64,000 nt of DNA from an uncultured cyanobacterium (GTDB lineage: Bacteria > Cyanobacteriota > Cyanobacteriia > Cyanobacteriales > FACHB-T130), in assembly GCA_936920195.1 (NCBI GenBank), contig CAKZHE010000073.1:1-64000 (forward strand), read 5' to 3'. Below are positions 50,680 to 54,035 of this stretch, in pieces. Under the pieces are notes generated by a model that saw nothing but the letters and a program-made list of their open reading frames with translations, did no database searches and was not told the origin of the DNA. Each line of letters begins with the position of its first letter. The stretch's first letter is position 1. Position numbers and translations under genes: made by a program.

Positions 50680-50733
50680 AGTTTGTAGTTGAGCTTTAGC
50701 CCCAATCTAAGGGCTAAAGCCCAACTACAAACT
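50680..50733. repeat. palindromic repeat supplying the NB-ARC gene stop codon
   Basis: Nearly perfect inverted repeat: AGTTTGTAGTTGAGCTTTAG on the left and GGGCTAAAGCCCAACTACAA on the right, with loop CAATCTAA. The final codons and TAG of the minus-strand STAND ATPase gene (AGT TTG TAG) lie in its right arm, exactly as for Uma2 and the copy at 50007-50060. The pair of repeats brackets the Uma2 gene. Confidence 0.9.
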
Positions 50734-52119
50734 CATATATTGCTTCAACACAGGTAAAAGCGTATAAAAACTTCCTTGTTGTTCTATCAAGCAGCGTCGC
50801 GATAAAGATTGCAGCGCGTTTAACAAATCTGACGGGGGAATTTTGCCATTTTCTAGCAATTTTTTTAAGTTGATTAGATCGCTTTCTTTAGCCAACAACG
50901 AGAGGACTTGTTTTTCTAGTTCAGATAAGCGATCGCACTGCTGCTGTAAACTATCTTTCAAATCTTCTGGTAACAATATAGTATCATCTGGTAATAACTC
51001 AGTCAAGCCTCCTCCCACATCTCGAATCAGAGTCGCCACGCTTTTTAACCATAAAGGATTGCCTTGGTAGCGGTGAATGAGTGCGTCCCAATTCTCGATT
51101 TCTGCTAACCCATAATCTTTCAGTATTTCTCGTCCGGCGGCGATATCTAAACCAGTGAGTTGTAAGGTTTTAATGTGAGTATTTTGACTTTTAACTTGAG
51201 TCACTTCTCGCGGTTGTTCCCAACCGATTAACAGAAAGCAGGTTTGATGGGATAATGTTTCTATCTGTTTGAAAAAAGAGCGATAGTTTTCATATCCTGG
51301 TTTATACTTTCCTGCCAATTCGCCACTACTGAAAAGGTTGTGAATGTCATCTAAAACAAGTAAACATCGATGTTTTTGTAAATACTTAATTAAGGATTTT
51401 GGTTTAGTTGCAGGTGAATCTAGTTTTTCTGACTGGGAGAAAAACTGTATTAGTTTATCTTCAAATTCATCTAAGGTGTGAGATGCGCCTATGCTGCACC
51501 AAATTACATATTCAAACTCATCTTTGATTTGCTGAACGAGTTGCACGGCTAATGTGGTTTTGCCGATACCGCTGATGCCTGCGATCGCTATTAAGGGACA
51601 GCGTTCTTGTAAAATCCACGTCTTAAGGGTTTCGAGTTCGGGAGTGCGTGAAGCGAAGCGATCGCCGCTAGGCGAATCATAGAAAGCACCCAACTTTGGC
51701 ATCTCGCTTAAATCTTGATGCGATGCTTTAGTTTGTTTCGAGTTAGCTGTTTCCTGATTTGGTGGGTATAAGTTGGGTATATTTGGTGGGTGCAAAATTT
51801 CCCCACAGAAGTTAACTGTATTAATTTGCACATAGTCTTGTGCAAAATGTGAAAATATCGAGACCTGCAACCTCTCCATTGATGCTCGAAAGTTTGATTT
51901 ACTAACTTTCTCCCCTAACTCTTGTGAAAGTATCTGCCATAATTCCATTCCTACTTCTCTAACACGATCCTCAGATCGGTTAACCGCCTTGGCAATTTCT
52001 TTGTAGTCCCCATCTTCCCACGTCCCTTGCAGAATCCTCTCTTGCAAATCATTGAGGTGCTTACCTGTTCTCGCAAATACCAGATCGTCTACAAGTTTTA
52101 ACACTTCCTTAAGGTTCAT
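50725..52119 (-). CDS. NB-ARC (STAND) ATPase, probably C-terminally truncated
   Basis: A 464-residue STAND-type protein. Residues 1-95 form a helical N-terminal domain (starting MNLKEVLKLVDDLVFARTGK, with KAVNRSEDRVREVG like a small HTH) of the kind found on cyanobacterial vWA-MoxR-associated and NB-ARC proteins. The ATPase has Walker A IAGISGIGKTTLAVQ, Walker B CLLVLDDIHNL, a GLD motif (LTGLDIAAG) and GNPLWLKSVA. A winged-helix part follows, then the frame ends in a palindromic repeat. Relatives usually continue into WD40 or TPR sensor repeats, which are missing here. Function in signalling or defence is inferred. Confidence 0.85.
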   Translation of the reverse strand: MNLKEVLKLVDDLVFARTGKHLNDLQERILQGTWEDGDYKEIAKAVNRSEDRVREVGMELWQILSQELGEKVSKSNFRASMERLQVSIFSHFAQDYVQINTVNFCGEILHPPNIPNLYPPNQETANSKQTKASHQDLSEMPKLGAFYDSPSGDRFASRTPELETLKTWILQERCPLIAIAGISGIGKTTLAVQLVQQIKDEFEYVIWCSIGASHTLDEFEDKLIQFFSQSEKLDSPATKPKSLIKYLQKHRCLLVLDDIHNLFSSGELAGKYKPGYENYRSFFKQIETLSHQTCFLLIGWEQPREVTQVKSQNTHIKTLQLTGLDIAAGREILKDYGLAEIENWDALIHRYQGNPLWLKSVATLIRDVGGGLTELLPDDTILLPEDLKDSLQQQCDRLSELEKQVLSLLAKESDLINLKKLLENGKIPPSDLLNALQSLSRRCLIEQQGSFYTLLPVLKQYMSL

Positions 52120-52327: not shown

Positions 52328-52612
52328 ATGAGCAGAGAAATTGACCAAGAGGTCAGTCGGAAGGACAGGCTAGCCATAAAAATTCTCAAGAAAGGCGACC
52401 AAGTTCTGAATGTCTCACACATGGGTGCGGAGATTCACATAGTTGTGCGGAAACCCAACGAGGAAGTTTTTGTCTACTCTGTGTTCCGCGATGAAAATGG
52501 ACAGCCTAAACTGTCTAAAGCACCAGAGATTAGTATCACTTATGGTGATGGTGAAGTTGAAGCATTGGTAACCGATGCTAATGGTCAGGAAGTTCTCTCT
52601 ATAACTGCTTAA
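52328..52612 (+). CDS. unknown small protein, first gene of the HNH cassette
   Basis: A 94-residue soluble protein with no family I recognise. The N-terminus is charged (SREIDQEVSRKDRLAIKIL); the rest looks like a beta-rich fold (VLNVSHMGAEIHIVVR, VFVYSVFRDENGQ, EISITYGDGEVEALVT). Two more genes follow on the same strand with 11-base and 1-base gaps, ending in an HNH nuclease and a terminator, so the three probably form one operon. It could be an inhibitor or targeting partner of the nuclease, but nothing in the sequence proves it. Confidence 0.65.
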   Translation: MSREIDQEVSRKDRLAIKILKKGDQVLNVSHMGAEIHIVVRKPNEEVFVYSVFRDENGQPKLSKAPEISITYGDGEVEALVTDANGQEVLSITA

Positions 52613-52623
52613 TGAGGTGAGTA

Positions 52624-52803
52624 GTGGGCAAGAAGTCTCTTAAAGTAACAGTTCATGGTTTATCTGATGAGAACTACGCCGATGTTGCTCATGGGATAGT
52701 TAAGACAGTCAAGTCAGTTGCTCCAAATAGCGATATCTCAATTCTGGGGTCAAATCCAGAAACATTTGAGAGGTCATCGAACAAGGAAATCAAGGGTAAG
52801 TAA
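52624..52803 (+). CDS. unknown 59-aa protein, second gene of the HNH cassette
   Basis: A 59-codon gene beginning at a GTG with a good ribosome binding site (GAGGTGA, 4 bases upstream) and ending TAA at 52801-52803. The product starts MGKKSLKVTVHGLSDENYA and has a Ser/Asn-rich middle and a basic tail (NKEIKGK). It is below the size usually annotated, but its spacing between the 94-aa gene and the HNH gene makes it credible. No family recognised. Confidence 0.6.
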   Translation: MGKKSLKVTVHGLSDENYADVAHGIVKTVKSVAPNSDISILGSNPETFERSSNKEIKGK

Positions 52804-52804
52804 T

Positions 52805-53038
52805 GTGGCAATTCAAAAACGAGACAACGAACACTTGAAGGCACAGAAAGCAGTCAAGCAGAGGGATAGTAACGAATGTGAAATTTGCGGTAAAGTCCCG
52901 CAGATCGCAAATGGACACCATGTTATTGCTTACAGTGATGGTGGTCCGGCGGATTTGAAGAATATGATGACACTTTGCCCAGAGTGTCACAGAGCTTACC
53001 ACAAGGGAGAAATAAAAGTCGATATTTGGCGATTTTAA
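52805..53038 (+). CDS. HNH endonuclease
   Basis: A 77-residue minimal HNH nuclease with a beta-beta-alpha-metal core. CEIC and CPEC form the structural zinc site, with catalytic NGHHVIAYSDGG (His-His) and LCPECHRAYHKG between and after. I chose the GTG at 52805, 1 base after the stop of the 59-aa gene; an extended frame to 52718 overlaps that gene and is probably not used. Free-standing small HNH proteins act in phage, mobile elements and defence; the partner genes here are unknown. A terminator follows 51 bases later. Confidence 0.82.
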   Translation: MAIQKRDNEHLKAQKAVKQRDSNECEICGKVPQIANGHHVIAYSDGGPADLKNMMTLCPECHRAYHKGEIKVDIWRF

Positions 53039-53089
53039 ATACAACGTCAAGCTTGCCTACAGCTCTCCTCGATATCTGTAATAATTGAG

Positions 53090-53122
53090 AAACCTCAGTT
53101 TTTGTTGCTGAGGTTTTTATTT
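53090..53122 (+). terminator. Rho-independent terminator of the HNH cassette
   Basis: AAACCTCAG, loop TTTTTGTTG, CTGAGGTTT, then TTATTTTTAT. A 9-bp stem with T-rich tail, about 50 bases after the HNH stop. Confidence 0.9.
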
Positions 53123-53177
53123 TTATTTTGTAGCAGAATTAACAGTAGCAATCCCTCATGGACAAGTCTGAAGAGGA

Positions 53178-53201
53178 AAGTCTTTGGGTGGCAGCAATTG
53201 A
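53178..53201. repeat. 24-bp direct repeat, left copy
   Basis: The 24-base sequence beginning AAGTCTTTGGGTGGCAGCAA and ending TTGA is identical to 53873-53896. The two copies bracket the RelE-type toxin-antitoxin pair. A short frame at 53158-53253 (31 codons, MDKSEEESLWVAAID...) crosses this copy; it is too short to support as a gene. Confidence 0.85.
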
Positions 53202-53336
53202 TTGGAAGCTTCTGAAACAGGTAGAAGAGACGCTTGTTCAAGCAACAGTCTAGTACGATGTAAATACCAGAGTCAAAAGTGGGGCGTGAGGCTTGCGTAG
53301 CAGGATAAAGTTACGTCTCTTGCTTAAAAAATGAAC

Positions 53337-53621
53337 TCAATAAACTTCGTCATGGCTACCAATATCAATCAAAACGATCTCTTCGACATCTGAATCTGAA
53401 TATTTCTTGAAATTGAATACTATTCTACAGTCGTACTCTACAGTACAAGACCAAGCACCAGATAGCTTACCTTTCAGCTTGTGGGTCTTAAGTGAGGGAT
53501 GAAATGGATCGTTTCCCAATAGTTCTAGTCCCTGAGCTATTTTCTCCTCCATTTCAGGTTTTTGGCGGATTAAGGATTTGAAAGCTCGTTTGAACGAAGA
53601 GGCTAAAACAAGGGTTCTCAT
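53337..53621 (-). CDS. RelE/YafQ-like toxin
   Basis: A 94-residue type II toxin of the RelE/ParE superfamily, probably a ribosome-dependent mRNA interferase. It begins MRTLVLASSFKRAFKSLIRQ and has PSLKTHKLKGKLSGAWSCTV, VEYDCRIVFNF and VLIDIGSHDEVY at the C-terminus, the usual RelE/StbE pattern. Its start overlaps the antitoxin stop by 4 bases. Located with its antitoxin between two 24-bp direct repeats. Confidence 0.88.
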   Translation of the reverse strand: MRTLVLASSFKRAFKSLIRQKPEMEEKIAQGLELLGNDPFHPSLKTHKLKGKLSGAWSCTVEYDCRIVFNFKKYSDSDVEEIVLIDIGSHDEVY

Positions 53622-53830
53622 CGTTTTAATTCTGCCATTATATCTTTTACTGTGCCTCGGAATACTTGTTCATGCAAATACTCTTCATCAGCACGAACAA
53701 TATTTAGCGCTATCTCATCTCTCCGTTTTTCCTTAAGTCGTCGCCCGATCAAATCGATTAGGACGATCTGTTCGTCATCAGGCATTTCTTCCACTAACTC
53801 TAGAATTGCATCAAAGCTATAGTTTTTCAT
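53618..53830 (-). CDS. antitoxin of the RelE-type pair
   Basis: A 70-residue acidic protein directly upstream of the toxin, overlapping it by 4 bases. Pattern: FDAILELVEEMPDDEQIVLI, then DLIGRRLKEKRRDEIA and a C-terminal helix (YLHEQVFRGTVKDIMAELKR) expected to wrap the toxin. This antitoxin type is common in cyanobacteria next to RelE-like toxins. The N-terminal part should bind DNA and repress the operon. Confidence 0.82.
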   Translation of the reverse strand: MKNYSFDAILELVEEMPDDEQIVLIDLIGRRLKEKRRDEIALNIVRADEEYLHEQVFRGTVKDIMAELKR

Positions 53831-53872
53831 TGTCAGACTCCAGAACTCTCCACAATTATAGCTTACCTAAGC

Positions 53873-53896
53873 AAGTCTTTGGGTGGCAGCAATTGA
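53873..53896. repeat. 24-bp direct repeat, right copy
   Basis: Identical to 53178-53201, about 695 bases away, on the far side of the toxin-antitoxin genes and at the edge of a PIN-domain remnant. Confidence 0.85.
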
Positions 53897-54035
53897 AAAG
53901 AACATTAGCACACTCAATATAAAATAGATCTGGCACAAAAAACTCAACAGCCGGATCGTCAAGACAATCGAATAATTGATTAACTTTAGGAGTCAAAGGA
54001 TCGACGATAAACTGCTTAATACAAATATAGGTAAT
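53892..54035 (-). pseudogene. PIN-domain (VapC-like) remnant
   Basis: Minus-strand translation, without a start codon, reads KQFIVDPLTPKVNQLFD, then DDPAVEFFVPDLFYIECANVL, the N-terminal part of a PIN ribonuclease (VapC toxin) including the acidic ECANVL segment. The similarity stops at the 24-bp direct repeat. The first catalytic Asp region is altered and the rest of the domain is absent, so this is a remnant. Confidence 0.6.

Follow-up and report, generated by a model that had tools for sequence, protein, structure and literature searches.

Three small genes, designated here A, B and C, were found together in identical order and on the same strand in 21 tabulated loci, whose hosts and carriers include Cyanobacteria, Psychrobacter, Halobeggiatoa, a Vibrio P2-like phage, a Klebsiella IncF plasmid and an integron-like array. 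The three genes are conserved as one co-inherited unit, and its spread is wide yet sporadic, on mobile elements as well as in defence loci. With moderate confidence, the unit can be regarded as a nuclease module of three components that moves horizontally and most likely acts against phages or other invading nucleic acids. The copy from which this analysis started lies in the window, a term that denotes here the whole stretch of 64,000 nucleotides analysed, from an uncultured cyanobacterium.

In the window the three genes are co-oriented and very tightly packed, with 11 nt between A and B and 1 nt between B and C, and the GTG start of B is preceded by GAGGTGAG. The coordinates, the spacing and the starts given in the original prediction all agreed on re-checking (Table 1). 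The same holds for the terminator placed after the cassette: a scan of the 1.3-kb region returned 5 terminator-like sites versus 0.9 expected, and the predicted hairpin with its T-run was among them.

Table 1. Features of the A-B-C cassette in the window.
Feature	Position	Strand	Description
Gene A	52328..52612	+	94 aa, ATG start
Gene B	52624..52803	+	59 aa, GTG start
Gene C	52805..53038	+	77 aa, GTG start, minimal HNH nuclease
Intrinsic terminator	53088..53118	+	12-pair stem, 7-nt loop, T-rich tail; ends the operon

All three frames are under selection as proteins. When the window was compared with four related loci (L021, L022, L023 and L003), dN/dS fell between 0.10 and 0.43 in 11 of 12 gene comparisons, the outlier being B against L022 (1.56), a value that rests on only 4.5 synonymous differences. 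Past the terminator, positions 53167-53253 hold a short coding-like stretch (EESLWVAAIDW...) similar in sequence to the final part of a 97-aa gene found at the equivalent position next to the L003 cassette (454-747). This stretch seems to be what is left of a decayed neighbouring gene; fragments of this kind were also seen in further relatives.

The evidence for co-inheritance came from searches with A and with C. A search with A among 195 genomes of the window's order gave a match in seven, the window's own genome included; five of the other six carry B and C directly downstream in unchanged order, and the sixth (G058, loci L005/L012) has A and B, with C absent. At the level of the phylum, A was matched in 3 of 386 genomes, one of them judged spurious, and the profile of C in a single one of 350 genomes of the class. 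Scanning genome contigs with the C alignment yielded 15 loci, and A and B were immediately upstream in all 14 that could be assessed, the fifteenth (L034) being set aside because its contig begins inside C. Two of the 14 (L024 and L026) had already been met in the A search as L004 and L006, their contigs being identical in length and sequence; the set also includes two Psychrobacter loci (L033 and L035), one from Halobeggiatoa (L031) and one from a metagenome-assembled genome labelled Pseudomonadota (L030). G001, whose C is incomplete at the end of a contig, was kept outside these counts. A further search in the order of Psychrobacter matched 2 of 194 genomes, namely Psychrobacter itself and G570, the latter with a full A-B-C unit (L043). 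Among plasmids and phages, C matched 22 records, and two of the 10 examined carry A-B-C: the Klebsiella IncF plasmid (L036) and the Vibrio P2-like phage (L037). The 12 records left aside include two sister plasmids of L036. The other eight of the 10 (L048-L055), whose HNH proteins are larger (121-419 aa), served as controls and showed no match to the A or B profiles.

The relationship across clades was assessed with profiles built from cyanobacterial rows only and run against 1725 open reading frames of the loci. The A profile found its counterparts in L030, L031, L033 and L035 (E 3.1e-22 to 1e-13), and the B profile did so in the same four loci (7.4e-12 to 5.6e-8), in both cases in the matching position. 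The A of the Vibrio phage was also found (1.1e-7), and that of the Klebsiella plasmid matched weakly (0.0072, and E 0.004 in a separate search). The B proteins of phage and plasmid were unmatched among these frames and were therefore assigned from position alone; in the plasmid, moreover, another small gene separates A from the tabulated B. With the full profiles, the proteins of G570 scored 2.4e-13 for A, 1.1e-10 for B and 1.6e-29 for C. The original prediction had taken the three genes as a unit, and had made this depend on the conservation of the two small frames and on the HNH gene keeping its partners. All of this is borne out: the order recurs on one strand in the 21 assembled loci, the frames of A and B are conserved across phyla, and no C gene lacking A and B was seen in the 14 assessable loci of its subfamily.

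Several searches gave no further members. A tblastn search of plasmids and phages with the A sequence of the window found no match, nor did a first scan of genome contigs with A, and no DNA in the E. coli collection matched the Klebsiella cassette. Five scans of viral contigs returned no relative, another gave only the Vibrio phage sequence, and one, with the C of G570 as the query, gave four HNH proteins (L057-L060). These are 87-94 aa long, reach at most 22 bits with the C profile and have no A or B neighbour, and they were not accepted as members. A 544-aa match in G476 and a 223-aa HNH protein in G215 were likewise excluded after inspection.

C carries the HNH motif with its flanking zinc-binding CxxC pairs and matches PF01844 (E 1.5e-13) with 51.1 bits against a Pfam cut-off of 21.4, which places it in the HNH superfamily. 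Its motif reads CxxC...GHH...N...CxxCH and is accompanied by a subfamily motif, RPxxHxKxQKxxK, and a C-terminal DIxRF. Residues C25, C28, G37, H38, H39, N53, C58, C61, H62 and H66, the four cysteines being those of the zinc site, are invariant in all 18 alignment rows; in one of three remote copies, that of the Vibrio phage, the HNH asparagine is replaced. The C profile also matches the HNH region of type IV and type II HNH restriction enzymes, of McrA type (8.4e-7) and TagI (6.7e-6). These are, however, chains of about 290-310 aa, whereas C has no attached recognition domain and comes with two separate small partners. As regards the IscB/OMEGA and Cas8f-HNH systems, the HNH region of C is near that of IscB (NF040563, 2.9e-10; PDB 9nvu, 1.2e-7), but C has no RuvC domain, no guide RNA family was found, and its 39.8 bits are far below the IscB cut-off of 175.

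Small HNH proteins are often mobile, and C might be a free-standing homing-type nuclease, with A and B as accessories of a cassette that spreads itself. The presence of the cassette at many unrelated sites and the identity of some PDB matches of the C profile (a maturase/reverse transcriptase and IscB) would fit such a proposal. Nevertheless, no Rfam family, group I/II introns and guide RNAs included, was matched at the gathering threshold around the window cassette, the elements that host the unit already account for its spread, and its distribution is sparse (one of 350 class genomes). We consider this explanation the least probable of those weighed here, and very improbable in itself.

The original prediction also held that the products of A and B match no known family, and searches of Pfam, PHROGs, NCBIfam and PADLOC agree, with no significant match for either. 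A is acidic, is predicted to be all-beta and belongs to an unnamed family; its alignments show a core motif, KILKxGDxVLN...GEVxVxS...DExGxPxI, and its net charge is zero or below in all 21 loci. Its AlphaFold model has six strands (pLDDT 77, pTM 0.57). The best PDB match by sequence (E 0.018) was unconvincing, and Foldseek returned nothing below E 0.001 for the model. VIA-align gave Z scores of at most 5.7, not above background and mostly to single blades of beta-propellers; some chains with PUR domains appeared at Z 4.6-5.2, which can be taken as a lead only.

B is difficult to align outside each clade. Its AlphaFold model consists of one long helix flanked by two extended stretches that were unassigned as strands (pLDDT 77, pTM 0.55), and Foldseek found no match to it below E 0.001. 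A PDB sequence match to a coiled-coil design (18 residues, E 0.0011) was judged compositional. A search with the single B sequence matched 1 of 292 genomes, its own, which indicates that a query this short does not reach far. At the N-terminus of the B proteins of L030, L031, L033, L035 and G570 there is a CCHC zinc-knuckle motif, a kind of module that binds single-stranded nucleic acids. Pfam zinc-knuckle models recognise it in some gammaproteobacterial B proteins below the curated cut-off (about E 0.005 in L033 and G570; zf-CCHC, PF00098, E 0.0047 in L033).

These features suggest a possible division of labour. C would be the effector, cutting or nicking DNA or possibly RNA or tRNA. B may act as a small nucleic-acid-binding adaptor, using the zinc knuckle in gammaproteobacteria, and the acidic A would either bind the basic C and silence it or sense a trigger. 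From one transcript, A, B and C would be made in fixed proportion, translation of C being coupled to that of B, and a signal of infection would free or direct C.

A different view would take the cassette as a stand-alone toxin-antitoxin system, in which C is the toxic nuclease and A, B or an A-B complex the antitoxin, and which persists through addiction rather than defence. As in type II systems, the genes are small and co-oriented, an acidic product comes first and the nuclease last. The charge of C is zero or above in 20 of the 21 loci, genes B and C overlap in seven of them, and a plasmid, a phage and an integron-like array are among its carriers. In contrast to type II systems, the cassette has three conserved genes and an HNH effector, and no antitoxin family was recognised: family searches found no antitoxin-like DNA-binding fold in A or B. 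Moreover, both partners have been retained across phyla, although one antitoxin would suffice. The losses described below bear on both sides, since G058 has lost C and kept A and B, as expected if C were the only costly part, whereas G023 has lost most of the unit and retains the tail of C. On balance, a plain toxin-antitoxin system appears unlikely, if still a serious contender. The defence and addiction readings overlap, and it is the kinds of genomic places occupied by the cassette that lead us to prefer a defence against phages to addiction alone.

Both Psychrobacter cassettes (L033 and L035) are inside type I restriction loci, where they lie between hsdS and hsdR on the opposite strand. 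PADLOC models gave 942.8 bits for hsdM, 422.6 for hsdS and 128.9 for hsdR in L033, in agreement with Pfam; for L035 the scan covered hsdM and hsdS, and hsdR was assigned from its likeness to that of L033. The cassette of the Vibrio P2-like phage is flanked by replication gene A and the portal gene, and one report describes the gpA-portal interval as a P2 defence hotspot in E. coli (PMC9122126). In L028 it is found just upstream of a PD-T4-4_A-like ATPase gene (213.3 bits), and on the Klebsiella plasmid, which is conjugative, it diverges from a row of genes that includes one for an Mrr_cat protein, of the Mrr restriction type. The G570 cassette is placed among five attC-like repeats, four of which fold better than shuffled sequences (z -2.4 to -4.9); the attC-like hairpin directly 3' of the cassette is weak (z -0.71). 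An integron integrase, IntI (429.7 bits), was identified in G570 at the end of another contig. After this cassette, L043 6267-8597 is a repeat-rich, integron-like array with 300-nt repeats within its cassettes. Two papers reportedly deal with integrons and defence. The unit appears to be moved by host elements, and these locus contexts, several of them independent of one another, support the defence or mobile-element role that had been predicted, short of a proof of function.

The notion of a functional link with the neighbouring STAND ATPase, which was implicit in the original prediction, found no support, and this neighbour looks incidental. A STAND gene divergent from the cassette is present in the window, L003, L021 and L022 only, four close relatives that amount to about one event; the NB-ARC scan covered the window copy, and the other three were assigned from likeness. 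DNA of the STAND region was detected in several of 60 relatives and on contig C26 of the window's own genome with the cassette absent, and the link was rejected. The STAND gene of the window (50725-52119) encodes an NB-ARC protein whose N-terminus gives a weak match of the sigma-70 region 4 kind. On the other side of the cassette, 53337-53830 holds a RelE/YafQ-like toxin gene (TIGR02385, 34.9 bits versus a cut-off of 27.9) and an upstream 70-aa partner with only weak antitoxin matches, a toxin-antitoxin pair by arrangement. A short frame at 53856-53996, which on visual inspection looks like part of a PIN-type toxin, includes 24 nt that exactly repeat 53178-53201. Of the accessory zone proposed at the outset, the NB-ARC/STAND gene and a RelE/YafQ-like toxin were found, and a second toxin-antitoxin system was not confirmed.

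In 11 of the 21 loci no defence or mobile-element neighbour was recognised, these being raw counts with no base rate, mostly read by eye with a subset profiled. This could be expected if the cassette served in repair, competence, plasmid transfer or some other DNA processing, with no role in conflict. The patchy occurrence of A (7 of 195 genomes of the order) and of C (1 of 350 of the class) argues against a housekeeping role, as do two losses. All of C is missing from G058, removed by a deletion whose junction shows a 5-bp overlap. This deletion joins the frame of B to that of a protein encoded downstream, giving a 156-aa chimera (L012 compared with L025 5847-6293), and the fusion partner has the look of a ribbon-helix-helix protein. 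In G023, the start of the STAND gene runs directly into the final 45 bases of C, the junction having an overlap of 7 bp, and this is the scar of a deleted cassette. The losses indicate that the cassette is dispensable and that C can go while A and B remain; together with the low frequencies, they point to an accessory, turnover-prone unit, and a housekeeping role seems improbable.

Considering the favoured defence role, the nearest parallels are Septu and the retron PtuAB effectors. Septu comprises an HNH component, PtuB, and an ATPase, PtuA, and the cassette would share with it a small HNH effector under the control of a partner. It differs in that the cassette encodes no ATPase and neither A nor B is matched by PADLOC; next to C, no Septu-type ATPase was recognised except the broadly similar PD-T4-4-like one of L028. 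PrrC-type nucleases are embedded in hsd loci, as is the cassette of Psychrobacter. Unlike them, the cassette is on the opposite strand and lacks an ATPase, and the other tabulated loci, as far as their neighbours were read, lie outside hsd. Septu is reported to cleave tRNA-Tyr (PMC13096335); this, together with the zinc knuckle of B, makes an RNA substrate worth considering.

No account of the A-B-C unit was found in the literature searched, which took in few subscription papers. Tentatively, it may represent an undescribed defence family made of two orphan families and a bare, free-standing HNH domain, in which A would cap the nuclease and B, with its zinc knuckle in gammaproteobacteria, would guide it to single strands; the target may be tRNA or phage RNA rather than duplex DNA. 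Since A and B are absent from the family libraries searched, profile surveys of defence islands would miss the cassette. Its small size and its plasmid, phage and integron-like carriers make it easy to clone and test. If the proposed role is correct, the cassette would be a compact addition, of about 0.7 kb and three genes, to the conflict systems of bacteria, and would offer a minimal model of the way in which an HNH domain on its own is kept in check and directed.
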